64,000 nucleotides of DNA, taken from NCBI GenBank assembly GCA_039096225.1, contig JBBPEB010000026.1, positions 1 to 64,000 on the forward strand, written 5' to 3'. The notes below the pieces were generated by a model that ran no database searches, was not told the DNA's origin, and saw only the letters and a list, made by a program, of their open reading frames with translations. Positions 1 to 53,168 of the stretch are shown piece by piece. Made by a program: the position numbers and the translations under genes. The stretch is from Blastocystis sp. Blastoise. Its lineage: Eukaryota; Sar; Bigyra; Opalinata; Blastocystidae. Position 1 is the first letter of the stretch. Each line of letters begins with the position of its first letter.

Positions 1-81
1 AACCCTAACCCTAACCCTAACCCTAACCCTAACCCTAACCCTAACCCTAACCCTAACCCTAACCTAAACCTAACCCTAACC

Positions 82-113
<32 letters not shown>

Positions 114-265
114 CTAACCCCTAACCCTAACCCTAACCCTAACCCTAACCCTAACCCTAACCCCTAACCCTAACCCTAACCCTAACCCTAACCCTAACCC
201 TAACCCTAACCCTAACCCTAACCCTAACCCTAACCCTAACCCTAACCCTAACCCTAACCCTAACC

Positions 266-306
<41 letters not shown>

Positions 307-350
307 CCCTAACCCTAACCCTAACCCTAACCCTAACCCTAACCCTAACC

Positions 351-391
<41 letters not shown>

Positions 392-516
392 CCCTAACCC
401 TAACCCTAACCCTAACCCTAACCTAACCCTAACCCTAACCCTAACCCTAACCCTAACCCTAACCCTAACCTAACCCTAACCCTAACCCTAACCCTAACCC
501 TAACCCTAACCCTAAC
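1..516. repeat. Telomere repeat array, CCCTAA type
   Basis: The window starts with an almost uninterrupted array of CCCTAA, which is TTAGGG read toward the chromosome end. A few variant units are scattered in it, such as CCTAA, CCCTAAA and CCCCTAA. Unique AT-rich DNA begins directly after the last unit. This marks a true chromosome end with the left edge as the terminus. Confidence 0.98.
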
Positions 517-3500
517 CTGCTACATATAATTAACTTTAATACTTACCAGAAATTTCAAAAAAAGAATATTGTTTATATACATTGTTGTTTATCATTATAT
601 TGAAAATATGATGATATTTCATCAGAGACTATTGACATAATATATCATTCATTATAGTATATTAGTATGTTATAATAATATGTATATTGGAATAAGGTGT
701 GAGTACATAAAATAAATAACTTTATATTTTTTGTTATAAAACAAATGTGTTGTTTAAGTGTCTTTGCTTTAGTAACTATTATTTAAAAATTACTTGTTTA
801 GCTTCCTAACCCTAATGTTTCAATGTTATATATAAAAAAAAATATCTTCATTCTTTGATAATAAAACAAAACAAAAAAGATTAAGAATTAAATTTAATGA
901 ATATATCTTAAAATTAAAATATATAATAATTTAAGAATATCATACATGAATAAAACACTATCAATAGATATAGAAATATATAATATATCGTTTAGTCTAT
1001 GAATACAAAAGATGATTATTAGTCAATTTGTAAAACAACACTTGATACTTGATTATAAGAGAATATTAGAAAATAAAAGCAAATTATTGAAATATTTTAT
1101 ATTGATTTGAATGAAACTAAAACAATGAATAACTCTTGTGAATGTTTTAAGGAAATATATATTTACAAATTTTGGATGTCTTAAGAATGAGTTTAAATTC
1201 TGTTTGTTTAATATTTGAAAATAAGAAAATATTTAATGAAAAAAAGTGAAAGAAGGTTTAGGTATATAGACATAGCAAAATATATAATAAACAATTTTTT
1301 GATATATAAAATTTTGATGAAAGTTAAATTAACAAGAATGAGCCTATTATTTCTTAATTGTATACTTAAAGATATATTTTTAAAATTACCTTACAATAGT
1401 ATTTATCATCAATATAACATAAACTAATGAAATTAAAATATAAGAATAAAAACTGAAAGAAAAAAAAAGAAACAAACTCTTCTCATTCAACGATTATATA
1501 ATAAATAATATCAAAAATATAGTTTTCATATTTAGTTACATATCATCTTTTATATATTAGTATGATATTTTTGTTTAAAATCTAATTTCTATTAAAATAA
1601 CAAAACAAGTAAATCTTAAAGTCATTTCTATTCTTCAAAGCAATTAAAATATATTTTTAGGTTTTGATTGAATACACTTGATATGTGACATATATTATAT
1701 ACTCAATTATGAGGTCAAATATTGTATTCAAAAAAAGTCATATAATTAATTAAGAAAAATAATATAAGAATGACTTTTCATATAAATTTATATAGGTATC
1801 TATGACTGTTTAAACGAGCTTTTACTAAATATAAGATTACATATAACATAATAAAGTATTGAAAACAAGCTATATTTCATTTAAAAATATTGTTTTTTCT
1901 AATTAAATTTTTGATTTTTGAAATGACTCTAAAATTTTTAAAATATTTTTCTCTTCATTTCTTCTAGAATTCTTAAAATCTCTTAGAATTCTTTATTTTC
2001 TATTTTTTATTTAAATAATTTGTTTTTCAATTTACTTTTATTTTCTTTTTAGTCACTATTAAACAATATTAATATTCACATTTTTTTACTTTTTGTAGAT
2101 ATTTTGACCTGTAGAACATTTTCTTACAACTAGATTCTTTAAAAGTGAAAAATTAACATTTCGAAATGAGAATGCTGTGCCAAATACTTTCTAAAATGTG
2201 TATTAAACTAAAATACATATGATATGTGTTTAGAAACACACACTTATACTTTTCTATTCAAGTCAGCATTTGCATCAGTTTTGAAAAAGGTCCTTATTCA
2301 AACATATATGTATATCAAATAGATAGTAATAAGGATCTAGTACACATATGTATATTCATAATTTTTAAATATAACTTAAATGAGTACTTACGAATGAGAT
2401 TTAAAAAACTGAAATTTTTAGAAAAAAATAATTCGCATACTCAAGTTTCTTTTAACTCATTCACCAATAAAAATATATTAAATATATATGAAAGACACCA
2501 ATATCGAACAAGAATAACCTACAGATACATATTTTGTATATTTAAGACATATTAGTTCAAAAATGAGATCAGTAGCCTTGATTATTTAAAAATCATGATC
2601 AATCACTTTTTTAATCTTGTTATTGTAATAGTGTCTTCCATTTTCAGAATAATAATATAAAAGCATAATAGATATAAAGTTTATAAAACGTAGATATATT
2701 TTTTGGTGTCAAACATAATATAACGACAATCCATCATTGAGAAAAGTTGAAATAAAAAAAATAAAATTTTCGTACAAAATGAATCAGTTTTGGCAAGATT
2801 GAAAAAAGGGTCTTTTGACTTATTTAAAGTTATCAAATCAATTTATATCGTTTATATTCATATACAGTATTGTCCATACATAAGAAATAATACTTTAATA
2901 GATTTATCTTGACAAGTCGACATTGGGTCAAAATGCAATATGTTGTTTTTTTTTGTCTTCTAAATTTGTTATTTTTAGTTATTACTAAGCTATATCATGT
3001 ATTAAATGCATACGAACAGATTTGCTTCAAAATTCATTATCTAGGGTATCAAAAATGAAAAGAAGAAATTTAAGTTTTTTTAATTTTTTTTTGCCTCTCT
3101 TTAATAAAAGTCATATAGCTCCGTCAATTCTTATTTAATAATAATAATTCTTTTTGTATAGAATAATAACACTATCATAATTATATATAACATATAAAAG
3201 TGTTAAAAATATAATAAATAAATGTGGTTATGACTCTTTTATAGAAATCATTTCTTTAAGCTATCGATTTTTTAAACGATTTTCATTCAATTTTATATTT
3301 TAAAGAAACATATTTACTAAGAAATATCTAAATAGTATGTATATATATAATATAGCTTTAAAAGTGTTATAATTTGTGTGAATGAGTTGATAGGATCAAT
3401 TATGATTGAAAAAAATGATTTTTGATGCAAGATTTTTTATAATTTTTCATCGACAATTTTATGCTCTATATCCTGAAATATGATATTTAAATGAATCTCA

Positions 3501-3944
3501 TCTATATATTTATAATCTTTAGATTATATACATAGAATAAAATGGTGTCATATGTCAAAGAACTACCAAATTCAAATAGAATAAGTCATAATATAGATAA
3601 TATACTTTTATAAATTTTTTCAATTAATTTTTAATATTATTCTTTTGACTTATAAAGTATATACTATATACATAAATAAAAAACAATATATAAATTAGCA
3701 TCATCAAAAAAATAATATAATTAACAATAGAAATGATACTGATACTGATTGTCATCGTATCAACAGGGTTAGTATTAATTATTTTATTTTTCTTATAATT
3801 AAGTTTTTATAAATTTATATTCTAAATTTGTTAAACTGGAAAAAAATAATGTACGATATATAAAAACATATATATATATAATAATTATATTTAAAAATAT
3901 ATTTAAATCCTATATATATAAACCATTCGTTGATCAGAAAAATT
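517..3944. other. Gene-free subtelomeric DNA
   Basis: Very AT-rich sequence with frequent stops in all frames. Open stretches of up to about 109 codons (for example 2226-2555) lack an ATG start at the right place and show no domain-like composition or intron pattern. A short telomere-like patch, CCTAACCCTAA, lies at 805-815. I see no gene here. Confidence 0.6.
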
Positions 3945-4101
3945 TTGTATACAGTTTATATACAGTTTAATTTTATTTAGTATACAGTTAATATACAGTT
4001 AATATACAGTTAATATACAGTTAATATACAGTTAATATACAGTTAATATACAGTTAATATACAGTTAATATACAGTTTGTTTACAGTTTGTTTACAGTTT
4101 T
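3945..4101. repeat. Tandem 11-bp repeat upstream of the recombinase gene
   Basis: About eight near-perfect copies of TATACAGTTAA run from 3981 to about 4068. Degenerate copies flank them on both sides (TATACAGTTTA on the left, TTTACAGTTTG on the right). The array ends about 90 bp before the ATG of the recombinase-like gene. It could be a promoter element, a protein-binding array or a simple tandem duplication; the sequence does not decide. Confidence 0.85.
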
Positions 4102-4193
4102 TATTTTATATTAAAATATAATTGATTAAAAAAAAACTATTCAGAAAAAAATAAGTTATAAATAACAATATTTATTTTTCTTATTTAATAGTA

Positions 4194-5780
4194 ATGAAAA
4201 GAATTGTATGATATAATATACATAATACATGATAAATAAATTATTTATATTTATATAGCAAAACCAAATAAGTATTAATCAATTTGATTGTATCTAATAC
4301 CAAAATAATTTATATATTATTATTAATAAATCTATATATTAATTATTAAAATTATAGCGAATACTAAAAGTAATAAAATCAAAAAAAATAACAATCGTTT
4401 TAAAAATGATATACTAGAAACTCAACAATTATCTATTGATTCTACTTATGAAAAAACTCGTCAATCAAGTACACCTAAAAAAAGTATATATATACTATAA
4501 TAATATCTTATAATAAAATAGAAATCTCATCTTCAAATAACAATAAATTTCAAAAACAAAATAAAAAAATATTAAATAATAATTGTAATATATATATATA
4601 TACATTAATAATAATATAATTTTCATTTCATAAATAATATATATAGTTAATACAATTTTGATCGATGATTCTTCTTCTTGTTCTTCTTTTCCTCCTAGTC
4701 CTTTATCTAAAGACCCTAATCCATTATATATGAATAGTGATCTATATTACTCACCTTCTATATCATCTCCTTCTATTCATTCTATTCAATTTAATTTATC
4801 TTCACCTTCTATATCATCTCCTTCTCCACATATATCAATTTTTAATAATAATCATAATAATAATAATAATTCATCTATCAATAAATTTAATTCATCTTCA
4901 TCTTCTATATCATCTCCTTCTCCACCTATATCAATTTTTAATAATAATCGTAATAATAATTCATCTATCAATAATTTTCATTCATCTCCTTCTATTCATT
5001 CTATTCAATTTAATTCATCTCCTTCTATATCATCTCCTTCTCCACCTATATCAATTTTTAATAATAATCATAATAATAATTCATCTATCAATAATTTTCA
5101 TTCATCTCCTTCTCCACCTATATCAATTTTTAATAATAATCATAATAATAATTCATGTATCAATAAATTTAATTCATCTCCATCTTCTATATCATCTCCT
5201 TCTCCACCTATATCAATTTTTAATAATAATCATAATAATAATAATTCATCTATTAATCAATTTTATACATCTCCTTCTCCACCTATATCAATTTTTAATA
5301 ATAATCATAATCATAATTTATCTATCAATAAATCTCATTCATCTCTATCTCCACCTATATCAATTTCTAATAATAATAATAATGATTTATCTATCAATAA
5401 ATTTCATTCATTTCCTTCTCCACCTATATCAACTTTTAATAATAATCATAATAATAATTCATCTATCAATAATTTTCATTCATCTCCTTCTCCACCTATA
5501 TCAATTTCTAATAATTCTATTAAATCTACTATATCTAATAATAATTTAAATAATCAATGTAATCCCAATTCTATAAATAAACAATTACCTGCTTGTCATG
5601 AATTTCCTATTGAAGCATCATTTCTTTCACCGATTCTACATAAAAATATAAAAATAAAAAAGAAATCTATAGATAATAAAGAATATGATTCTATTAAGAT
5701 AAATAATAATCAATCTTATAAATTCAATTCTAACAAGAATAATGACGAAATTCAAGATAATGTAATTGATATAGACTCAC

Positions 5781-5836
<56 letters not shown>

Positions 5837-6203
5837 ATAATGGGAAAATTATATCAAATAAGAATAAAATAGACTATATACCACTAGCAATTAAAAATAA
5901 TGAAGAAGAAGATGATGAAGAAATTCTAATAAGTTCAGAAGAACTCAAAACATTTCTATATACATTATCAAGTAATAATTGTTTATATATTAAATGCATT
6001 ATTATTATTATAATTCATACGATATATAGATATTCAAAATATAATTAAGAATAATAATGAAATAGATGAAGAAGTATAAATATATTTTAAAATAATATTT
6101 TTTGATTTATATATATATATACTCAATAGATAAGATCAGAAATATATAATTTTTTGAAGCAATACAAAATAAATCTTGATGATAATGAAGTATATTTAAA
6201 ATC

Positions 6204-6260
<57 letters not shown>

Positions 6261-6562
6261 TAATATATATATACAGGATTTTATGAATAATTTGTGTAAT
6301 TTAATTTTGAACTCGGATACAAACTATACTAAACATGTATATATTTAAATAATAATCATATTTATTTTAATTTTAATTTATAGATTATTACTAACCCACT
6401 ACTTGTAAAAGATTTGGATCTTCAAACCTATATATATCTGCAATTAGGATATGTATCTATATATATATTATATGTATATACATTTAAAAATATAATAATT
6501 CTAGATACTTAAGAAAAATAACAATAATGAAGAATCATTAAATACAATTCAAGAATTAAGAA

Positions 6563-6621
<59 letters not shown>

Positions 6622-6940
6622 CCTGTAAAATTAAATGAAAAAATAAATCTTGGTGAGAAATCATTAGAAATAAATAAAAATCTTCTTGGTTGCTTTTTAC
6701 CAGAACGATTAAGTGATGATGATATTAGTCGCCTATATAATATAATAAAATATTGGAAATATCAAAGAAAGTGTAGTAGAAAAAGAATTCTACTAATGGA
6801 TACAAATACAAAAATATTTATAAAATATGCTTTACCTTTAATTAAATCTGTGATTACTGGAGACTTCTATGAAAACGGGGTTGAGGATAAAATACCGGAT
6901 ATATCTATATATTCTCTATCTGAGAAACAAATTTTGTATC

Positions 6941-6972
<32 letters not shown>

Positions 6973-9900
6973 TATATATATATATATATAGTTATGAAAT
7001 TATGCTTAGTATTTGTGATATAATCAATTTTGCTTTTGTATTATATCAGGAAGAACTTGATCATTATGGTTTGAATATTTTACTATTTCCTGATTTTATA
7101 TATAAATACGTTACTCTAAATATTCTGCCCAGATCAAATTGTCCAAAAACCCTTCATAATAGAATACAAGAGATAAGATCTATAATTACCTATATAGAAA
7201 GAAAAAATGTATATATAGATAATAAAATGAAAGATATAATAAAAGAAACACTAACATATATTACTCACAAGTCTTCAGTTATGATTACAGATAGCAATTT
7301 CATTAGTAAAAATGATAGTAAAGCTTTTGAGGATTTGAATAAGAAAAAGAAAATGGAAGCTCTTATCTCTTTACAAGATTACTACAATATAATTAGAACA
7401 TTATTTGAAAAAATTAATATATATATAGAAGAAATTAATAATAAGAAAAATATTAATGATATATATATAAAAAAATTTCATACTATTACGATTCTTATGA
7501 TGTATCTCCTTCAGACTTGCACAGGCTGTCCACTTAGAAATAATGATATATATAATTTGAAATTATTTGAAAACCTAAAGAAATATAGAAATGAAAATAC
7601 TAAAAAAGAATATATATATATAATACATACAGGATCTAAGAATGGAAATATTCCTTATTCTGACGGCAAAAAATTTCCTGATATATATATTTTATGCGAA
7701 AAATTTCAAAAGATATATGATAAATATATAATTATAAGAAATCAAATATGTGAATATTTAAAAGATAATGATATTGAATATACAACAAATTTATTCCTAT
7801 ATATACGAAAACCAAATACTAATAGTAATTATGTAGCATCCCAATTCACATATAGTACCTATCCCACTATGTATACCTATATATATATATTTATCTAAAT
7901 CTATATATATATATATATATATATATTAACTTATATACCTATATAGTTGTAAACATCAATTAAAAAAATTATTTAGTAACATACCTAAAGATCACTCAGG
8001 TTATTCCTATAGACATTGTTTTGCCACTTGGTTTGGAAGAACAAATTGTGTTAATCCTCTTTATTGCCAAAGTTTCATCAGAAGTTGCCATCATACAAAT
8101 GATGTTCATGACAAATACTATAATCTAAATATAAAATATAAAACTATATATAATAATAATGATTTTAAATTAAATGATTTATGTACTTCTGAGCTTGGTA
8201 TAAAAGTATTCATTGATTATGTCCTGGATAAACAATTCGCTAAAGAAATGAATTATTTTGTCCCAGAAAGAGATATTGATGGTAACCTAATAACCATTCA
8301 TGAAGCTCTAGTATGTAGATATCTATATATATATATATATATATATATAGACTTGCTCATATGAATTACTGGTTAGAAAGTGTACATTCAATTATGATAT
8401 AAATCGTTATATTGAATCAAAAGAAGATATATCATCTAAAGTATTCATATTATCAATATTATCCATATTATTTTTATTATCGATATTATTTATATTATTC
8501 ATGTATATTCATATTATCCATATATATTCATATTCATATATATTCATATTCATATTCATATTCATATTATCCATATATATTCATATTCATATATATTCAT
8601 ATTCATATTCATATTCATATTATCCATATATATTCATATTCATATTATTCATGTATATTCATATTATCCATATGTATTCATATTCATATTCATATTCATA
8701 TTCATATTCATATTCATATTATCCATATATATTCATATTCATATTATTCATGTATATTCATATTATCATATATATCCCATAGATGGAATCAAAAGATAGT
8801 GCTAAAATAAATAATTGTAACAATGAAAATAAATATATTAAATTATCAGATCAACAAATATCTCCTATAATTATATCTCCCATTATAAAGTTCAATAGTA
8901 TGAATGATGATGAAAATAAAAAAAGTATAGAACTTATTTCTCCTCTTCTTCTTCCTTCATTTAATTCTAATAACAATGATAATAATTATAGTATAAATGA
9001 TTCATTAAATAATCAATATAATCTAAATAATAATAATATATTAAATAATTATTATTCTCCAATTCCAAGTATTCATAATTCTGTTGAAGATATTAATCAG
9101 TTTAATATTTCTATCATTTCCAATAGTGATAATTCTATCAATGATAATTCTTCTAAGCAAATAATAAATAATTTATCTAATCCATTAATCAACAATAATA
9201 ATCAAAATAATAATAATTCTTCTAATTCATTCATTAATAATTCTTCTTATCCAATATCAAATAATAATCATAATTTATCTAATCCAATAGTAAATAATAA
9301 TCATAATTTATCTAATACATCAATCAATTATAACAATTCTTCTTATCCAATATCAACTAATAATCATAATTTATCTAATACATCAATCAATTATAACAAT
9401 TCTTCTTATCCAATATCAAATAATAATCATAATTTATCTAATACATCAATCAATTGTAACAATTCTTCTTATCCAATATCAAATAATAATCATAATTTAT
9501 CTAATCCAATAGTAAATAATAATCATAATTTATCTAGTACATCAATCAATTATAACAATTCTTCTAATCCATCAATCAATAATATCAATTATCTTAGTTC
9601 ATCAATCAATAATAACAACAATCTTAATTCATCAATCAATAATAATAATTATCTTAATTCATCAATCAATATTAATAATCAAAATAATAATAATTCTTCT
9701 AATTCATTCATTAATCATAACAGTTCTTCAAATCCATTAATAAATAATAATAACTATCTTAATTCATCAATCAATTACAATAATTCATTAAATCCAATAA
9801 TTAGTAGTAATGATAATATAATTTCTTCATCTCCTAATATCTTATTAAATAATATCAATAATAATTTGGCTAATCCAATAATTAGTAATAGTAATAATAT

Positions 9901-10354
9901 TTCTTTCCAAAAACTTCAAAATACTAATGAATATGCATCTAAAGTTATTCAAAATAATAACCAATCTTCAGCTAATATAATTTCAGCTAATAATTCTAAT
10001 ATACAATCATCTATTAAATATAATATTGATAATATTAATGCTGATAATATAATACCTACTGATGTATATGATTATACTTCATTATCTGAAAATAATGATA
10101 TAAGCAAAGAAATTCATAATCAATCATCAAATTTATCTATAAATTATTCAAATGATAATATTAATATTTGTATATATATATATAATATAATATAATATAA
10201 TATATATATATATAATGTATATAATATAATAATATAATATTTATATATATATATATACAGCTAGTTGTTATAATAATAGTCAAAATAGTCAATATGAAAA
10301 TGATCCTATACAAATAAATAATAAACAAACATATAATCTAATTAGTATTATATA

Positions 10355-10414
<60 letters not shown>

Positions 10415-10639
10415 TAATGAGATAATAGTTAATGAAAAACAATATGTATATAATATAATATAATATAATATAATATAATATAATATATATAGTATACATT
10501 CTTACATGAAGGATCTTTTCCAAGTGAATTATTTGATTTATATTTATATTTAAATGTTTATAACAAAATTGTAACAACCAATAATATAAATTTATTCATT
10601 CATAACTACTATAATTATAATGATTTTATTAATGATTCT

Positions 10640-10679
<40 letters not shown>

Positions 10680-11004
10680 TATTATTATTCATATATATAT
10701 AGCTATATAATATATCTTATGAAATTCAATTTCATTTTAATTCCAATTCACCAATATTTTTTATATTTACAATCTATTTAAAGTATTCATCTATATATAT
10801 ATATATTATTATTATTATTATTATAGAAATAAAGATAGATATTATTTAATAATTAATAAACTGACAAATGGTGATAAAAAGAAAACACTTACAATTAATA
10901 TATACAATTTCTTTGATATTGAAGATGGAAATGATAAATATCTCAATCAAATAATTAATCAAATCAAAAAGTATATTTAATTATTTTAATAGAATTATCT
11001 ATCT

Positions 11005-11042
<38 letters not shown>

Positions 11043-11390
11043 TTATTTAAAACTAATACATCAAAAATTATTGTTCAATATAAAAAAGTATATATATATA
11101 TATACTTATATATATATATATATAATAAAAAAATATTATATATAAAGTGTGATAAATCTTATGATAATAACAATGCAATTCTTATATTTGGAATGATTAA
11201 ACAATTTATCAAAGAATATAATATGTTTCAAAAAAATATAAAACATATTAGAAACTTGTATATATATATATATATACAATAATAACTTTTATATATATAT
11301 AGAAATTTTGATTATGATAATATAGATTTAGATTCTGAACAATTAAACGTTAATAAATTCTTCTTATATCACCTAAATAAAGAAAAATAA
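4194..11390 (+). CDS. Tyrosine recombinase-like fusion protein, about 24 exons
   Basis: Hand-spliced model starting MKRIQNQISINQFD at 4194 and giving about 1,880 residues; every junction is GT..AG and keeps frame. Residues 1-600 are Ser/Asn/Pro-rich with repeats of SPSPPISIFNNN. Residues about 850-1075 look like a tyrosine recombinase catalytic domain: TGCPLRNNDI carries the first Arg, SKNGNIP fits the beta-hairpin Lys, SGYSYRHCFATW the second Arg, and RSCHHTNDVHDKYY the His and nucleophile Tyr. The first His of the usual HxxR is a Tyr (YSYR). An Asn-rich linker (exon 8783-10165) follows. A C-terminal region (about 1659-1880) faintly resembles Ulp1/C48 proteases but lacks the catalytic Cys. 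Crypton-type elements encode such recombinases, but I see no element boundaries. Exon 8783 also begins with ATG, so two genes are possible, although the upstream exon joins it in phase. Confidence 0.72.
4790..5520. repeat. Coding tandem repeats in the recombinase gene N-terminus
   Basis: Eight or so imperfect units encode Ser-Pro-Ser-Pro-Pro-Ile-Ser-Ile-Phe followed by Asn/His runs and a SSIN(N/K)F(H/N)SS spacer. The DNA units (about 60-75 bp) differ by small in-frame changes, so the array is probably still translated. A long open frame in the next phase is a by-product of the same repetition. Confidence 0.8.
8441..8782. repeat. Intron filled by a TATTCA microsatellite
   Basis: From GTATTCATATT to CCCATAG the sequence is dominated by TATTCA, TATTCATA and TATCCATA units. 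It fits as a phase-0 intron between an exon ending in ESKEDISSK and one beginning MESKDSAK. It is the longest intron of the gene. If it were not spliced it would mark the border between two adjacent genes. Confidence 0.7.
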
Positions 11391-11560
11391 ATTATTTTAT
11401 GTATATATGATATTTTTAATAAATATATTTATAATTACTATTTCTTATGTATTCTTTTTTGTTGACTTTAAATAAATATACATATATACAATATAATTAT
11501 AAAATAATTTACAAGAAATATAAATGAAAATTATATATACATATCAAAAAGAAAAAATAA

Positions 11561-14390
<2,830 letters not shown>

Positions 14391-14700
14391 TTTATAGCTA
14401 TCTTATATTTTTTTAAACTATATATAATATCCTATTTCTTTTCTTTTTAGATAATATAATATATTGTATATAAATCGATATATTTACATCTATATATTAA
14501 TTAATAAGATATCTTTTAACACAAAAATAATTCCAATATTATTTATTTTCAAAACTAGCAATTCAAATGTAATATTCAATTTATTTATTCCTAAAAATAA
14601 TTCCATTTTAAATAATAAAGACCAAATATAGGATATATAAATATAAATAAGGATAACATTCAAATAACTATCTAGTTAATAACATCTCAATTGTTTTTGT

Positions 14701-14748
14701 TTCTATATATATATATATATATATTTCTTATCAGTTCTTTTTTTTTAA

Positions 14749-14792
<44 letters not shown>

Positions 14793-14848
14793 TGATTAGT
14801 GAGGAGAGTGAGTAATTTACATATAATAGTAATAGTTTGAATGTATTC

Positions 14849-14879
<31 letters not shown>

Positions 14880-15216
14880 TTATGAACAGATTCGTTTAAT
14901 ATATCAATATCTTTATTTGTTAACTATATATATATAATAAAAATATAATTATAATAAGAACAAATATAATAATAAAAAAATAAATAGATAAAAGAATATA
15001 TGTGTTGAAGGAGATAAAAAAGATATTTACAATATTTATATATTTAAACACCATCATAACAACACATCTATTATATATAATAAGTAATATATATTTATAT
15101 ATACTCTATTCCTCATATATATAATGAGTAAGTAACTTATTAGCAATTTATTTCTGTATTATTACCAACACAATAAATAATACAGTTGAATTAATTATTT
15201 CCTATATATATAATAA

Positions 15217-15256
<40 letters not shown>

Positions 15257-15339
15257 TATTCATTACATTAAAATTAAAAAATATAAATGTCTTAAAAAAA
15301 AATCAAAATCTAATTTTAAAACTCGTTTGAATCTTTAAT

Positions 15340-15408
<69 letters not shown>

Positions 15409-16670
15409 ATAAAATATAAAAAGAATAATAATTAAATAACTCTAATATAAATGAATTAATTTAAATAATAATTTTAATTAAAAATTAAAATAAATAAGAA
15501 ATTAAAAAAAAATATATATATATATTACAATTAATTCATCAAAATACAATACGGAATTCAATTAATAATCACGATAACTACGTGATATACTCTCTAATCA
15601 TTTTAATACTATAAAATATATGTATATAAAATAAATAAAACTAATTCAAAATAGAAATGCATACTAAAAGTATTTCTTTAATCCAATATGTTATTTGAAA
15701 CATTATATTGACCTATTCTATAACACAATAACAGACCAAATCTTAAATAATCATGTAACCTAAACAAAGAATACAATTAACTAAAATAATATATAAAATA
15801 TATACTAAATATTGAAGCGGAACATTGTTTATTTATTGAATTTAATATATTCAATCTGAATAAAGCATCACAGCAACACATAACTTAAAAAAAAAATAAA
15901 TCAAAGACCAAGTGTCAATTTTTTCTATATTTCAAGAATTAAAATAAAATTATACGGATTCATTTAACTTTTACCGTAAACGAATAAAACAACGATCTGT
16001 GTTTTACATTTTTAATATTCTTTTATAAATATCATTATAATATAAATTATTTTTTTATTTTTTTATCTCTATATACTATTTTAAACACAATTTATAATCA
16101 TTTAATCAATAAAAAGTTAACATTGTCAATCCATTCACTGTTTAATAATAAATAAATCTAAATCAACTCTATTCTATCAAGCATAAGCTCTATCAACTCA
16201 ATATAAACTCAATAAACTCATTTGAAATACAATTATAAACATCACCTTTTTATCTCTTAATATCAATAATTAAACAATATTTGAACTCATTTTCATCTTG
16301 AATTGCTTTATAAGTCTATAATATATGCTAAATACTCTTTATTAAAGCTTTTTGTCACGGATCACTATTTTTTTATCTATAAAATAATTCAATAAAATAA
16401 ATTTACTAATAATGTTTACATCTTGAGTTATTATAAACATTCAAAAACACATTTATATTTAAAACAACACATTATCTAAAGAAAAACTATTTTTAAAAAA
16501 CAAGTTTTAAAAAAAACATAAAATTTATTCAAATTATAACGAGATCCATTCATGAAATCGTGATTCTTATTTATAATGACACTTTTCTTTTGTCTTCACT
16601 AAAAACAATTTCAAATTTCATTATTTATCTATCTTATATATTTATCAAAACTTTATCTTTTTAATTAATT
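14701..16670. other. Gene-free AT-rich spacer with microsatellites
   Basis: Long TA arrays (14,757-14,788, 14,851-14,873 and a 60-bp array at 15,343-15,404) and an AAT array (15,217-15,255) lie in otherwise unique AT-rich DNA. I found no coding text, RNA gene or element ends in this stretch. Confidence 0.6.
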
Positions 16671-17320
16671 ATGTATGTTATCTATTTATCATCTCTATAT
16701 CTCCTAGCTGTCTCATTCTTAGGTCTTGTAGTCTCTCCATTCTTCAAAATCTCCATTCCTTTTGCTGTTCTTCAAAAAGTGCTTAAAATGGTATATATTC
16801 TATATTATTTATCTATTTAATATTATATATTTATTTAGGAAGTCTTGGTGTTACCTGATTGGTGATCTCTGTGTTGGTTTCCTTTCTTGTTGGTTTTAAT
16901 GTGTTCAAACAATCTACAAGGTATTTATATATTTATTCTATTCATTTTATTATTATTTTATATAGTTTAAAGGTTAATTCACCCATCATGGGTTCGTTGT
17001 TTCCTTTCTTCTTTGGTTTTAATGCTCTCAAACTATTATGATGTTCTTTATGACCTTTCTATTCTACTCAAATGATCTCTTCTTTATCAAAAATATCCTT
17101 TTTCCTGTATATTTTTATTTATTTATTTTTTCTTTTTTTTTTATTATTTTTTATTCTTTATTTACTTTTATATTATTATAAATATATTTATTATCATCTT
17201 ATTTATTTATATACAGTATTTATATATAGTTTTTGTTATCAAAGAGATGATCATCGTCTCCATTGTGCTTGATATTTTTCTTCTTTTGCTTCTATTTGGA
17301 TTCTTTGTCTTGTTTATAGT
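16671..17320 (+). pseudogene. Relic of a small membrane-protein gene
   Basis: An ATG at 16671 opens a 40-codon hydrophobic exon beginning MYVIYLSSLYLLAVSFLGLV, followed by a plausible GT..AG intron (16,791-16,838). The next two exon-like blocks each contain a similar phrase, SFLVGFNVFK and PFFFGFNALK, so internally repeated transmembrane hairpins are likely. A further hydrophobic run, MIIVSIVLDIFLL, follows near 17,244. The frames do not connect without stops, so I read this as a decayed gene. Family not recognised. Confidence 0.35.
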
Positions 17321-17742
17321 CTTGTAATGTTATTTGAGATGAATTGGGTTACAATTTTAGGTATCTTATGTAAATATATATATTATATTTTTATTTTTTT
17401 TTTATTATATTTGTCTTTATCTATTATATATTTATTTTTTATATTTACATATTTATGTGGTTTATTATACTATTTTATATTATTTTTATTAACTATTTTA
17501 TATAATATATATTTTATTTTTTATGTATTTTGTTCTCTTGGTGTATTAATAGCTTTGTTGCTTTCGTATATATATATATATATATATTTATACATAATCT
17601 TTTTTTATTCTAATATTTCCCTTTTTTTTCCTTTCACATTGGTATTCCTTTCTTGTAACTTTTATTGTGTTTTTCTATAATTTTATATATATATATATTA
17701 TTTTCTATTCATATATACTTATAATTACTTTTGTTTATCGTA

Positions 17743-17802
17743 TTTAAGCTCCATAATGGATGGATATATATATATATATACAGGTTCAAATCCTGGCTTA
17801 AA
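17743..17802 (+). tRNA. Compact tRNA-like element 1, possibly degenerate
   Basis: A 7-bp acceptor-like stem (TTTAAGC with GCTTAAA), a D-arm-like hairpin (CCAT with ATGG around AATGG), a 17-nt TA-repeat middle and a T-arm CAGG-TTCAAAT-CCTG fit end to end in 60 nt. GGTTCAAATCC is a perfect pol III B box. The middle arm is only TA repeat, there is no variable loop and the A box is poor. It may be a non-canonical tRNA, a relic or a tRNA-derived element. Confidence 0.4.
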
Positions 17803-17913
17803 TATTTTATTTTATTATATTCTTTTTATAATTAATTTTTATATTATAATTATATTATATATATATATATAGAAGATGAATTCAATATATTAAAATATAT
17901 TATTATTTTAATA

Positions 17914-17981
17914 TTTAATTTCTATAAATGGATAGAATATATAAATATTATATATATATCAGGTTCGATTCCTGACTTAAA
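17914..17981 (+). tRNA. Compact tRNA-like element 2, possibly degenerate
   Basis: It has the same plan as the element about 110 bp upstream: acceptor TTTAATT with ACTTAAA (one mismatch), D-arm CTAT/ATAG around AAATGG, an AT-only 24-nt middle, and T-arm CAGG-TTCGATT-CCTG with a perfect GGTTCGATTCC B box. The two share arm sizes and the D-loop end, so they are probably a tandem pair. The anticodon cannot be assigned with confidence. Confidence 0.38.
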
Positions 17982-19235
17982 TTATTCTATTCTTTTAATT
18001 TATAATTATTATTCTATATATATAGAATTCAAATGTTTATCTAATCAATTATGTAATATATATAGTTATCTTCAATTATTTAATCATCAAGAAATCTCTT
18101 TGTATTTACAAAAATTAAAAAATTTTCAAATAGTAATATAGTCTTCTAATTAATATTTCTTTCTTTTCTACCTTTATTTTCAATTCTCATGACAAATATC
18201 ATCTTAATATGTTTATATCAACACTTCAGCACCAGTAATTAAAACATTTTTATATAAAATATGTTAATTTATTATCTTTTTTCAATTATAAATATTCATT
18301 ATAACATATTAAACTTATATAAGCATTCTAAACAACTATGTTTACACACAATTCATCCATTCTTAAAAAATATTTTATTCTATTTTTCAACTTTTAGTCA
18401 TACTAGTGTATACTATAGACTATTATTCAATGAATAGTATCAATTTTAATTCAAAAGAATAATATATGTTATTTAAAAATAATAAAATGAGAATAAAAAG
18501 AAAAATTATACTAAGAACTTTATCTATCTTTTCAAACTTCTTCTTTTTATTTATTTATTATTTAGATACTCTTAATATTCATTATTTATTCATTTTTATA
18601 CTCATTATCATCTCTAGTCATCATATATATTTTTTATTTTATACTTTACTAAAACATTATCTTCTCATTCTTATTAATTATTTTCTTAAAGTTATTATTA
18701 TGTTTAATTCTTATTAATAATCACTTTATAAATTCATTTAACATGTTTTTATAAAATATTTAAAACAAATCATGTCAAAGTCTCTCCTTCAACTATCTTC
18801 AAACTGTTCATGATTCACTTATTTAATTACTTTATGACTTAATTATCAATATTTTATTATAATCATTTTTCAAGTATTCTTTTATACACACAATTCTTAA
18901 CATTATTAAACTATTTTGTTTTTAAAACAAGTTATTATCATACACATATGTTTATTAGTCTATAATAACTTCATAAAAGTTATTTTTGTTTATTTAAGTC
19001 AACATGAGTGAATTCATAGTTTTTTACAAAATGTCTTTAAACAAAACTTTTATTTATTTAAATAGTATCTATATGTTAATTCACATTGATTGTATTCATA
19101 TTATATTATAATAATTATATAAACATATTAAAAAATTAAATTTTAAAATAAAAAATAAAAATGATATTCAATCAATTTTTCTTTTTTTATTATGTATTTT
19201 TTATTTATATTATATATTATATATATATCCAACAC
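17982..19235. other. Gene-free AT-rich spacer
   Basis: Short open stretches only. An 83-codon ATG frame at 18466 is Ile/Leu/Phe/Tyr/Asn by base composition and shows no coding signal. No repeats of note and no RNA gene seen. Confidence 0.55.
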
Positions 19236-19239
19236 ACGC

Positions 19240-19895
19240 ACAACCTATATAATAATAATATAGAATAAAATAAATAATATATACCTATTTGATGGGTGAA
19301 ACACCCTCTAGTTGAAAGAATAGTTTAGAAATTTTTGAATTTTTGTTATAATTTTTTTTACCTATTTTAATAATTTCTATACCTAATACTTACAAAAAAG
19401 ACTTAATACTTCATTAAACACACTCAACTCATCCTATATATACTTTCTATATAAAAATAACTATATAATATAAAATATTTATACATAATCACCACAATTG
19501 TCTAATATAATATATACCTTAAAAAGTATTCCAATGATACTAAGACAACATAAATGATCCAAAATCATCGTAGAACATAGTTTATCATCATAAGTACCAA
19601 AACCAACACTACAAAGACAATGGGAAAAAGTGATGTTATGAATTTTCATTCATAAACATCACTTTCAACTATATAATAAGACAATCAATAATATAGTATG
19701 ATATAATATAAAAATAAAATATATACCATAATTAAAATCTTCCCATTCTTACCTTAAACCTTTTCAAACGTAGTAATTCAAACAGATCCATGAATAGCAC
19801 CATATTTCAACAGACCACAGGTATCCTAACACTATAAATAGCTACACATTCAAACCCAAGCCAAGAATGGCGTCTATTTATTATTTAATATAAAT
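19240..19895 (-). pseudogene. Possible decayed gene on the minus strand
   Basis: Less AT-rich islands at 19,290-19,320, 19,520-19,670 and 19,735-19,880 are separated by intron-like TATAT..TATAC boundaries (read as GTATA..ATATAG on the minus strand). Short open pieces such as SVGFGTYDDKLCS can be read, but frames do not join. A similar patch with shared GTGCGTGT wording lies near 21,660-21,880. Function unknown; it may be a relic of the same class as the other broken genes nearby. Confidence 0.28.
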
Positions 19896-20098
19896 AATAT
19901 TTCATTATAAAAATAAAAATAAATATATTGAATTCATTAAATAAATAAAAATAAAAGAATTACCATTATAATTTAAAAAATAAACAAAAAAAATAAAGCA
20001 AAATAAAAAAGCCTCTCAAAAAGGTCAACCACTTTTTTACCCTAATAACATTTTGGTTGACTTTTTTATTTTAATTCATTCTATTGGCTTATTTCATC

Positions 20099-20141
20099 CT
20101 ACAATCGTAGAATCGTAGACTCTACGATTCTACGATTGTAG
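20099..20141. repeat. Perfect 21-bp-arm palindrome
   Basis: The left arm starts CTACAATCGTAG and the right arm ends CTACGATTGTAG; all 21 pairs match around a single C. It would fold as a strong hairpin in DNA or RNA and is far more GC-balanced than its surroundings. Confidence 0.93.
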
Positions 20142-20235
20142 ACAGCCAATCAAATTCATTTTCCTACAATCCTACAATCGTAGAATCGTAGACTCTACGA
20201 TTGTAGACTACCAATCAAATTCATTATCTTATATT

Positions 20236-20278
20236 CTACAATCGTAGAATCGTAGAGTCTACGATTCTATGATTGTAG
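20236..20278. repeat. Near-perfect 21-bp-arm palindrome
   Basis: Same design as the palindrome at 20,099, with one changed base in the right arm (CTATGATT for CTACGATT), which still allows a G-U pair in RNA, and G instead of C at the centre. Confidence 0.9.
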
Positions 20279-20697
20279 AAATGAAAAACTCTATTTTTAT
20301 TGGATAAATCTTTTTTTATCCAATTATTTTCTTCTTTTTTCAATTCTACAATACCCAATTATTTTATTTTATTTTTTTAACCAATTAAATTAATTATTTT
20401 CACCCTAATAAAATTTTGAGAACCCTTCTTTTAAAACATTACCACTTTATTCTATCATTTTTTTACCCTAATACTATTTTGGTTCACTTTTTTACCCTAA
20501 TACTATTTTGGTTGATTTTTTTTTAAACTTATTCTATTGGTTTATTTAATCCTACAATCATACAATCGTAGACTCTACGATTCTACGATTCTAGACTACC
20601 AATTAAATCAATAATATCTTTTTTTATCCAATTATATTTATAATATTAAAAAATATTATAACATTTTATAACATACTCTCAGTATATATTTTTTTTT

Positions 20698-20713
20698 CCC
20701 TAACCCTAACCCC
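20698..20713. repeat. Interstitial telomere motif
   Basis: CCCTAACCCTAACCC occurs 20.7 kb from the chromosome end, immediately after the hairpin cluster. A shorter CTAACCCTAA patch follows at about 21,208. These could be scars of end healing, a former telomere or part of a mobile element. Confidence 0.8.
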
Positions 20714-22685
20714 TGAATTTATGACACTAAAATCTATTCCAAAACAAGAATTACAAAAATGTTTTCTTTTAAAATTTTATTTTTTTTCATATATTAATTT
20801 TATTTATATCTAAAAAATAGCAAATTAAAATTTCATAATAATTTTTATTTAACTTCTTTTACAATTCTAGATATTTCATAGAATTATTTATTTACTATTC
20901 ATTATTTAAAAATAAAATATTTATTCTTATTTCTTTTTAATTAATTACTTAATAACATTAATATTAATTTTTTAATTATTTTACTTTATGTAGATTCTTT
21001 GACATATAAAACATTTTCACTAATAATCAGGTTTTAGTTTTTTAGAAAAATAACTCTTAAGTTTGACCACTATCAGCCTCTAGAAAAGCACTAAATAGGA
21101 ATAAAAAATCACATTCTGACTCTAGAGTCAACACCAAATAACGTATATGACACCACTATCAGACCCAATATTTTTTTAAGAAGCAATTTCAGAAATGTAT
21201 TTGGTTCTAACCCTAAGCAAATAAAAATACACGAGAAATAAAACATATATATTATTTAATTAACATAATATGGATATTAATGATATATAAAAGGGTTTAA
21301 TAAGTCATTTCATATTTAATTAATATCCTTTTTAATCCCAAAACAACTCATTTTCATTTTATAGTATTATAAACAGAAAAATAATAAACTAATAAAAATA
21401 ATACATAAATAATTAATAAACTAACATAGATTTTTTTTATATGTTTAGTATTCATGCAGAGTGTCGTTTTTTGACCAATTTTTAAAGACTATAAAAATGT
21501 AATTATAAAAATGTTGATAATTTAATAATAATAAATTATACACCTTATATAAACACATCAAACATCATCTTATCTTCAATTTCAAAATCATTTTAATAGA
21601 CTATATATAGTTTAAAATAAAAAATGATAAAAAAATAATTATAAATAATATATATTAAACACGCACATCAATCAACGATTACACTTCAAGGACCACCAGC
21701 TAAAAAAGCCAATTATTACTATTATATAAAAATATTTAAAGCATACATTTCAAAGTAAGTCATTCCTGATCAGTAGAGCACCAAAAACAAAGTTATAACT
21801 ATAAAAAGTAGATAAATAGAGAAATAAGAACATATCTTCATCCAAGAGAAAAAATTGTGTTCATCTCCTATTTATTTGAGCCATAAATGATAGCTATATA
21901 ATAAATTATATAAAAAAATAATGATACATACCATTATAAATCAACAAAAAAAAACAATCGTAAAAAATCAATAATAAAATAATTTATATGAAAAACTTTT
22001 ATGTCAAATAATAATCTAACCTCTAACTCTAAAATATGTATAAAAATAAATATATAAGAACTCTGAAAATTCTACCCTATAGTGATTTCTCCTTTTTTTC
22101 TTTTGAATGATTGAAAACTAAAAAAGTCAGCATAGTCCAAATATCACTGTATATTCATAATATAATAATTATGATATTTATATTTATGTTATGACAAGTG
22201 ATATTAGGTTATTGAAAGAATAACAACCAATAATAAATACAATAAAAACTATATTGTGTTTAATCGAGATACTATAATGATTATATAGTATTTCATTACA
22301 ATAATTATATCATTTAAAATAAGAAAATATTTAATCTGATATACTTTCACAAACTGATTTACTAATTCTTTAAAAATATTTTTTATTTATAAAAATATAA
22401 CTCTTCTTATTTTTACATACTCATAGAAATAAATGTGCAAAGAACTAAGTTTTAAATAAATCAATTTAAAGAATATTAATAGAAATAAAAGTGTAAAAAA
22501 ATATTATTATTATAAACAAAACTATATATATAGAAAACTATTAATTATTTAGGTAGAAACATTAATAATAAACTAATTTATATTCTTATGATATTAATTA
22601 AAAAAAGAAATAAAAATAATAGTATAAACGAATATATATATTATTTAGTAAATAATAAAAAAGAGTAATAACATGGAATAGTAAT
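20714..22685. other. AT-rich spacer without a clear gene
   Basis: No frame longer than chance. A less AT-rich patch at 21,660-21,880 resembles, in composition and wording, the possible relic at 19.2-19.9 kb, and may be another fragment of it. Otherwise nothing recognised. Confidence 0.5.
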
Positions 22686-46594: not shown

Positions 46595-49321
<2,727 letters not shown>

Positions 49322-50306: not shown

Positions 50307-53168
50307 TTATAATTTAGCTTCAATAACTTGTTCAGGTTCAGTAATAATATTCTTATTATCAGCTAATATATAATGGCATCCATGAGAAACAGGCTGATTG
50401 ACAGCATCGGTAGCAACACATAAAGCTATATAGAAATTGTTTAGTATATTTTTATTATATATTTTTATTATATATTATTAGAGTATATTTTTATTATATA
50501 TTACTTATAATATATTTTTTTATAATATATTATTATTATAATATTATTTATAATATATTATTATTATATATTATTTATAATATATTTTTATAATATTCTA
50601 TTATTATAGTATATTTTATAATATTTTTTTATAATAAACTATTATTATTATATATTATAAAAATCTAATAAATATCTACCTGTATCAATAGAATTTCGAA
50701 GAGAATAAAGTTCGCTATCTGGTTTAGAAGTCGAAATAGTTTTAGTGATATCTTCTTTAATACCATTTAATATACATATACTTTCATTTAACTTCTTAGG
50801 AGTACGAATAATACCTACATTATCCCACATTACCTACAGAATGAAATAGAATTAATAAATATATATATATTAATACTATTTATAAATAAACTAAGAATAT
50901 ATACAGAATGAATTCTATCCCAATAACCCTTAATAACCGCGGGAGAAACAGCTTCAGTACGTTTATTAATATTTTCATATACATTTCCATCTAATCCATT
51001 AATATCACTAATAAAAGATTTAGAACTAATAGATTGAGATAATTCCATTCCACAGAAATGTCCCCAAGTAAGACCTTCTAAAAGAGACGTAGAAGCAAGA
51101 CGATTGGCTCCATGTACACCCGTACAACTGACTTCACCAATACATAAAAGACTATACATAAATTATATATAAAAAAAAATAGTATTTATAATTGTTATTG
51201 AATACTAAATATAAATAAAATAGAAAGATCATTAATATATAGAGTAATAGAATAAATAATAACACTAATATATATATATACTTTTGAATATTTGTTTGTC
51301 CATGATTATCAACAAGAACACCGCCGCAGCTGAAATGAGCAGCCGGAACACAAGGAATAGGTCCTTTAGTGAGGTCATGACCTAGAGAGAGACAGGTAGT
51401 ATATACCTGAGGGAAACGAGAAGTAATCCAATCATGAGGCTTGAAGGAGATATCCAAGTAACTATATAGAGTAGTATTATTATGTTTATTATTATGTTTA
51501 TTATTATGTTTATTATTATGTTTATTATTATGTTTATTATTATTAAAATATATTATTATTGTTGTTAAAAAATAAATTATTATTATTATTACTATTAAAA
51601 AATAAATTATGATTATAAATACATACCAATGTTTACTATTATTTTTAAGCATTTCTCTATAGATCATTCTACTAACAATATCACGAGGAGCTAAATTACC
51701 AAGGGGATGATATTTCTTAGCAAATTCTTCATTCTTAGTATTCAATAAGACAGCTCCTTCTCCACGAAGTGATTCGGTTAATAAGAAATTACGATTATGT
51801 TCTACATATAAAGCAGTAGGATGGAATTGAACATATTCCATATCACCAGTCTTAGCACCTATATATAATATTTTATTATTATTTTAAATAATTATTATAA
51901 GTATGCTAATAAAACTAATATATATATATATCTAAAAATAAATTCCTGAATCTAACAATCGTTAACATAAATATAATAATAAATAATAATTATAATAATA
52001 ATAATTATTATTATATATATATATATATATATACCAATTCTCTTAGCAAGAGCTACACCTTCTCCTTTAGCAGCAGGGGGATTACTGGTAAATGGATATA
52101 ACTCACCAAGGCCACCTGTAGCTAAAACAACTTGCTTAGCATATACAGTCATATATCTAGAGAGTCAAATAATTAATATATAACAATAAACAATATCTAA
52201 CAATAAACAATAAATAATAAAAACAATAAAAAAAACATACTCATCATATTTTTTATTATAAATAAGAGCACCAGCACAAATATTCTCTCCATTATCTTGT
52301 TTCTTCATAGAAGTAAGAAGATCAATAACTTGAGATGTAGTAATAATATGAATATTAGGATGAGCTTGTACACTTGCAGATAAACCCTATATATATATAT
52401 AATAATAATAAATATATATATTTCATAAACTAAATAGCATAATTACAATTTTTAAAAAAATATATATATATATATATATAAATGTCAATAAAAACATACT
52501 CGAATAATAGCTTTACCTGTTTCATCCTTATAATGAATAATTCTTCGTGTACTATGAGCACCTTCTCTAGTCATATCTAATTCTTCATGATCATCATGAT
52601 CAAATTCTACATTAACTGGTTTTGTTAATAATACTTCATCTATAGCCTAAATTTATAAAAATTAGATTTTCTTTTTTATTCTTCAAAAATACACAAATAA
52701 ATATAATATAATATACTTTAGGTCCATTCTTAGATAAATATAAAACAGCATCCTTCTTATTTTCATTGGCACCAGCAACAAGAATATCATTAGCTAGAAG
52801 ATCAATCGAATCTTTCTTTCCTCTGTATACAATACCTCCTTGAGCCCTGAATATAGGTTAATTATAGAAATTTCAAAGCATAAGAATATTTCTTAACTCA
52901 ATATATACCAGTAAGAATTACATTCTTGAATATTTTCAGCTAGAGAAAGCATAGTTACATGACATCCTCCTTGAGCAGCAGCAAGAGCAGTAGAACAACC
53001 AGCTATACCACATCCTACTACTAATACATCAGTTTTAAAAGTATCTCCTTTTAAATCGTTTGTAGATATTGTATTGCAAGTAGAAGCAGCACGAGCAAAG
53101 GAACTAACGACATGAGTACGTTGAGCAATTGTTTTTATTGAAGAATTTAATATAGATATCATAGACAT
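50307..53168 (-). CDS. nadB: L-aspartate oxidase, mitochondrial-type presequence
   Basis: Oxidises L-aspartate to iminoaspartate with FAD, the first step of aspartate-route NAD synthesis. About ten exons give roughly 580 residues. The N-terminal 38 residues ([20 protein letters not shown]..) are Ser/Arg-rich without acids, typical of a mitochondrial presequence. The FAD-binding Rossmann motif is [16 protein letters not shown], followed by [13 protein letters not shown]. Active-site blocks are present: [48 protein letters not shown] and [17 protein letters not shown]. The last with [10 protein letters not shown], and MWDNVGIIR after it, favour L-aspartate oxidase over succinate dehydrogenase or fumarate reductase. 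The C-terminal ESRG-type motif before HY is replaced by QPVSHGCHY, and the protein stops soon after. No quinolinate synthase is seen in the window. An SDH/fumarate-reductase-like role is the main alternative. Confidence 0.88.
51478..51545. repeat. 12-bp tandem repeat in an L-aspartate oxidase intron
   Basis: About five and a half units of TTATTATGTTTA lie in the intron between the exons ending NNSKHW and beginning [11 protein letters not shown]. It reads as a false His/Asn repeat if the intron is retained. Confidence 0.85.

Follow-up and report, generated by a model that had tools for sequence, protein, structure and literature searches.

The yeast Y' elements are large blocks that carry a long gene, a helicase; they are stacked at chromosome ends, successive units being separated by short stretches of telomere repeat. 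Here we describe a subtelomeric block, termed block A, in the stramenopile Blastocystis sp. Blastoise, in which a large recombinase-like gene has been copied along with its surroundings onto many chromosome ends. The window, meaning the whole stretch of DNA analysed, comprises positions 1 to 64,000 of contig JBBPEB010000026.1 (C17) and is the left end of that contig in an assembly of 33.3 Mb and 34 contigs (GCA_039096225.1). Like Y', block A occurs as units at chromosome ends in one orientation, with short telomere tracts between them. The likeness is in arrangement only: Y' carries a helicase, whereas block A carries a recombinase-like gene, has a different sequence and resides in a stramenopile host.

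TATE of kinetoplastids is a tyrosine recombinase element found in tandem clusters within telomeric hexamer repeats and treated among the DIRS-type retroelements (PMC6681497). Among recombinase elements situated in telomeric hexamers, it is the closest precedent. The right end of block A also lies within telomeric hexamers, at 15 of 16 junctions. Unlike for TATE and DIRS, however, no reverse transcriptase was found in block A, which is known from junction sequences, not from an observed insertion. The 21 rows for reverse transcriptase PF00078 in the genome include none on C17 or within block copies, and a retroelement was set aside because the block yielded no such enzyme.

PMC3212892 reports CryptonS and CryptonF as tyrosine recombinase elements from stramenopiles (oomycetes and a diatom), gives 5-6 bp terminal direct repeats for Cryptons, and notes that some oomycete Cryptons encode a C48 peptidase. 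Short Crypton-like recombinases are present in this genome, yet the large gene differs in its length of 1,856 aa, its 23 introns, its lack of a PF00589 match and the absence of gene-sized insertions among the copies seen. A search of its C-terminal domain for the C48 peptidase that some Cryptons encode found none. Block A has a right end fixed at a telomere hexamer and a variable left end.

A first search of ~ 5.8 billion protein sequences, whose length limits excluded full-length proteins, scored 7,997 candidates and gave no match. A second search of ~ 5.8 billion sequences returned five proteins, all from Blastocystis sp. Blastoise. Absence outside this genome is weak evidence, given that the search did not return a diverged subfamily of the same genome. 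Viral contigs searched with two short peptide patterns gave no match, and a literature search whose coverage left out most subscription journals found no paper on the large gene or on Blastocystis with a tyrosine recombinase.

Block A and its junctions

Within the window, block A occupies the DNA between the telomere repeat and a fixed right end:

1..517, no strand: telomere repeat (CCCTAA)n at the C17 left end, by direct reading
518..20699, no strand: block A, which carries the large gene and whose telomere-side end here starts at TGCTACAT; delimited from its left region at 13 close places, its right end at 16 other places and the junctions read
4194..11390, plus strand: large gene of 24 exons and 1,856 aa, from the splice search and NCBI WA158_006557
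4647..5782, plus strand: exon 5, a Ser/Asn/Pro-rich N-terminal arm with internal repeats
8441..8782, plus strand: intron 15, with ATATTC-type repeats; truncation site in the C14 copy L059/L046
20099..20141, no strand: perfect palindrome with 21-base arms
20172-20206: weaker palindrome (94%, 16-base arms)
20552-20594: weaker palindrome (86%, 21-base arms)
20688..20714, no strand: fixed right end of block A, a T-run and then CCCTAACCCTAACCCC, joined to other sequence

All three palindromes lie within ~ 600 bases of the right end. The initial annotation of this DNA had called the gene subtelomeric, which agrees with its place at the left end of C17, where the window starts in telomere repeat.

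A genome search with window positions 18800-20900 as query, in which 40 of 97 candidates were scored, found at least 16 places besides the window that stop at query positions 1907-1923, and none of these 16 continues into the sequence that follows in the window. Right junctions were read in the window and in 15 of the 16 other places (L045, L047-L060). A T-run plus CCCTAACCC, a position within telomeric hexamers, was observed in 15 of the 16 junctions, with the fixed end in constant hexamer phase wherever the phase is clear. Beyond this end we counted, by eye and without L048, at least 14 different partner sequences. Telomere repeat continues to the limit of the read sequence in L047, several partners are different points of one apparent satellite, and those in L054 and L056 look by eye like coding sequence. 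In L045 the right end is joined to the left end of another block A, a block-block junction. Two partners lie inside truncated copies of the large gene itself, in exon 5 (L060) and in intron 15 (L059).

The left, telomere-side end of block A is variable. Among 13 close left regions, three start at TGCTACAT on telomere repeat (the window, L061 and L045), nine reach beyond that point to the left (L062-L070) and the remaining one is truncated by its contig end. Internal relics of the telomere-side part of the block, at 79% identity, were also observed at C4:375576 and C5:331741 (L071, L072). A block A left region lies at C10:167208-168185; C10 has no gene copy among the loci listed by the core-exon search.

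A second subfamily of the gene, described below, sits in a related setting. Its block on C20 ends in CATTT plus four telomere units, so the combination of gene and terminus in telomere repeat is found in both subfamilies, in the second from a single end read beside an intact core. On C28, an end similar to the one on C20 is joined to the inside of an exon-13 relic. The right ends of C14, C20 and C33 (L074-L076), which carry this subfamily, stop at nearly the same base with no telomere repeat, so the assembly of these ends probably breaks off at a repeat that they have in common.

We favour, at a probability of roughly 0.6, the reading that the recombinase-like gene is carried by a Y'-type block and that chromosome ends break, are capped by telomere repeats and gain a fresh block. 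Ends would lose sequence, sometimes within the large gene; the broken end would be capped by CCCTAA repeats; and a fresh block would be copied onto the cap from another end, via recombination within the telomere repeats. We infer this order of break, cap and copy. Blocks copied onto a cap would share one centromere-side end and differ at their telomere-side ends, and repeated loss, capping and re-addition would leave both of these features together with short telomere tracts and stacking on truncated copies. Two observations weigh against this account: L048 departs from the fixed end, with a T-run followed by a C-run, and right-end pieces inside contigs C10, C22 and C28 are unexplained by stacking at present chromosome ends. 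These internal pieces would fit either stacking or the action of a recombinase only with further rearrangement.

Block A could alternatively be a DNA-only mobile element, whose own tyrosine recombinase integrates or attaches it at telomeric CCCTAA hexamers, possibly through the palindromes, with the telomere-side ends eroded later. The palindromes beside the fixed end, the conserved core residues under strong selection and the right-end pieces at internal sites would all suit such an element. Two papers offer precedents: TATE is described as inserting at a single position of the telomeric hexamer (PMC6681497), and Cryptons as having short terminal direct repeats (PMC3212892). The constant hexamer phase also suits an element, but would also be inherited from one ancestral junction. 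In addition, the left end is not fixed, and the recombinase activity is putative. On C14, one block lies beyond the exon-5 break, and it terminates within intron 15 of its own gene copy instead of leading back into the lost half of exon 5; this stack speaks against simple insertion. We therefore consider a self-integrating element improbable. The initial annotation had offered either a domesticated recombinase or the coding body of a mobile element; the Y'-type reading falls between the two, with the gene carried by a block that would move from end to end via telomere repeats.

The large gene and its copies

Further features of the gene and its upstream flank are the following:

3948..4099, plus strand: ~ 14 copies of the 11-base repeat TATACAGTTAA, immediately upstream of the gene; of 12 close copies fetched, 11 have it and the 5'-truncated L019 does not
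8783..10169, plus strand: exon 16, an Asn/Ser-rich second arm
10493..11390, plus strand: exons 19-24, a conserved C-terminal domain of no recognised family

A splice search, with both gene ends fixed from the initial annotation, in-frame stops forbidden and the exon 15/16 boundary set by hand, gave a single frame from the ATG at 4194 to the TAA ending at 11390, with 23 GT-AG introns of 38-342 bases. Compared by eye, NCBI WA158_006557 (P0007, 1,795 aa) is the same protein minus exons 4, 8 and 11 (61 aa). Exons 4, 10 and 11 are borne out by near-identical copies that lack the flanking introns, while exon 8 has 75% identity in the second subfamily. The second subfamily (L020, L022, L023) is 54-64% identical to the window by region, with the alignable exons in identical order, exon 5 and several small exons unmatched, and exon 16 matched partially. 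At the level of sequence comparison, the NCBI protein, the second subfamily and the intron-less copies confirm the 24-exon chain and the gene as real, and the ~ 24 exons in one frame over 7.2 kb of the initial annotation hold. So do its Ser/Asn-rich arms, with a combined Asn and Ser content of 48% in residues 78-456 and of 52% in residues 1161-1640.

The gene is under purifying selection. Between the second subfamily and the window, at dS of 0.8-1.5, exons 13-14 had a dN/dS of 0.16-0.17, compared with 0.31 for exons 6-12 and 0.37-0.40 for exons 19-24. No other convincing gene was seen between 11400 and 20712, and the large gene is the only substantial one recognised in the roughly 20-kb block.

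Exon structure, copy structure and junctions are observed features of this assembly. The core exon occurs at 17 or more loci in the genome. Thirteen of the 17 found are close copies, the window included, and three represent the second subfamily (C14, C20, C33); L024 on C23 is a 1.3-kb second-subfamily fragment, adjoining what by eye is hAT-like sequence. Two further loci hold other gene parts only: C14:1309865 has a piece from the 3' side, and C28:261 kb has a relic of exon 13. Paralogues were sought beside other telomeres, and 16 subtelomeric gene loci were found at 12 contig ends, at most 86 kb from the end and all reading away from the nearer end.

Close copies, apart from the 5'-truncated L019, have flanking DNA in common upstream and downstream of the gene, and second-subfamily copies have flanks in common with one another. 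These shared flanks imply dispersal by large segments; no copy resembling an insertion of the gene alone was seen among the copies. When the window exons were lifted onto the 12 close copies, the frame was open to the end in half of them (L011, L012, L015-L018). The other six had stops or frame breaks, some perhaps produced by aligning repeats.

The initial annotation had also proposed a protease-like C-terminal fold, which we reject: the domain had no Pfam match and no relevant PDB match, and its Peptidase_C48 score was at chance level. Its score against a C48 profile derived from four of this genome's own genes was 14.1, within the range of 150 shuffles (mean 12.4, maximum 24.4), and by eye the Cys position of SYDCG is taken by an Asn. 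Elsewhere in the genome, L037-L044 form a multi-copy, intron-containing C48 peptidase gene family with the SYDCG-type motif intact. Outside block A, the window holds arginyl-tRNA synthetase exons (DALR_1) at 46758-47234 on the minus strand and, by eye, a succinate dehydrogenase-like FAD-binding fragment at 50833-51162.

The recombinase-like core

The core is encoded by two exons:

6992..7870, plus strand: exon 13, first half of the core; R888 codon at 7536-7538, K922 codon at 7638-7640
7947..8310, plus strand: exon 14, second half of the core; Y1018 at 8002-8004, R1021 at 8011-8013, H1048 at 8092-8094, Y1056/Y1057 at 8116-8121

This core, unusual in having Tyr where the HxxR box starts with His, is probably homologous to tyrosine recombinases. 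The homology is supported statistically, and profile-profile comparison is its sole support. A profile cut to the catalytic part scored 23.9 in local comparison with the short recombinases of this genome, and none of 150 column shuffles scored as high. A third subfamily fragment was added to the core profile for the later comparisons, which gave 22.9 against the short recombinases (1/120 shuffles as high) and 19.3 against XerC/XerD (0/120). Against a merged set of the short recombinases, XerC/XerD, Cre and lambda Int the score was 29.3, with no shuffle of 120 as high and a null maximum of 24.1. The same method scored five true recombinase pairs at 26.6-61.1 (Xer-lambda 26.6, Xer-Cre 29.5) and a C48 control at 13.3 (43/120 shuffles as high).

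In a relaxed merged alignment of 158 columns, the expected boxes are matched, in order, by R888, K922, Y1018-x-x-R1021-H-C-F-A-T and H1048; these boxes hold the residues that we take to be catalytic in tyrosine recombinases. Y1056 reaches the Tyr column once a gap of one residue is allowed, while ungapped spacing from H1048 leads to Y1057. The K register is less sure, because the XerD row holds the second Lys of the box in the K column. The R, K, R, H and Y positions named in the initial annotation can thus be located as R888, K922, R1021, H1048 and Y1056 or Y1057, and the Tyr that it placed at the first His of HxxR is Tyr 1018.

Of the 16 other copies fetched, 15 preserve all four motif stretches and one, the fragment L024, lacks the first two; the exon-13 relic on C28 retains the R and K stretches. 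Identity in the second subfamily is 78% for exon 14 and 58% for exon 13, with the box regions among the best conserved. A structure model of P0011 (1,015 aa) had a mean pLDDT of 31.6, too poor to test the fold.

Several results weigh against a recombinase origin. Pfam, PHROGs and PDB sequence searches with the gene product returned no tyrosine recombinase. PF00589 gave 12 rows over the genome, none at the large-gene family, and an hmmscan of the gene was also without a PF00589 match; ten of the 12 rows were read as loci and proved to be separate, short recombinase genes. With a HMMER model of the short recombinases, the whole-sequence score failed to separate the gene from shuffles, although the best domain alignment (4.6 bits) was in the expected register. 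A full-length profile of two rows gave no match to six short recombinases, the cut profile did not beat the null in global comparison, and the core profile gained no support from Cre alone (14.4, 17/120) or lambda Int alone (11.7, 68/120). The tyrosine recombinase core of the initial annotation hence stands on profile-profile comparison and fails in Pfam.

These failures would be expected if the core were no tyrosine recombinase at all and an unrelated subtelomeric gene, with a chance pattern of R, K, R, H and Y, were merely carried along. We judge this unlikely, however, since the merged-profile score is on par with those of true pairs such as Xer-Cre and Xer-lambda, with the boxes in order, and since the box regions are among the best conserved, exon 14 more so than exon 13.

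The short recombinase genes (~ 370 aa; L025-L034) form several families that match or nearly match PF00589. By eye, some of them adjoin hAT-like or MULE-like open frames.

Intron-less copies and the rebuilding of chromosome ends

Introns were observed to be exactly absent at predicted junctions in four near-identical copies of the large gene: introns 10 and 11 in L011, 9 and 10 in L015, 3 and 4 in L017, and 5 in L021. These seven absences cover six junctions, and in three of the four copies adjacent introns are missing together. Whether they are artefacts or true losses, they require that RNA spliced at these junctions was once present.

True recent loss, in which reverse-transcribed spliced transcripts recombined with the gene, is a tentative reading that we hold slightly below even odds. 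It gains from the presence of reverse transcriptases (PF00078) in the genome and from the exact absence of a 41-base intron in a short Crypton-like recombinase as well (L025 at C22:950088 compared with L032 at C14:82104). The entry of RNA-derived reads in assembly polishing is a serious alternative, because a misaligned spliced read in a polished assembly would leave the pattern seen in L015, where intron 11 keeps its length but begins with the first four bases of exon 12 in place of its own. The intron-less copies suggest that the genome has taken up reverse-transcribed transcripts or that the assembly has taken up RNA reads, and either matters to users of this genome.

To our knowledge, few end-stacking subtelomeric blocks have been described, and the one in yeast carries a helicase. 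Stacked truncated copies record breakage and repair at single ends and so offer a view of how ends are rebuilt. A stramenopile block with a conserved recombinase-like gene makes it testable whether a recombinase helps to rebuild chromosome ends. If block A were a DNA-only element spreading by its own recombinase after all, chromosome ends in this lineage would be rebuilt partly by a recombinase, and not by telomerase and homologous recombination alone.

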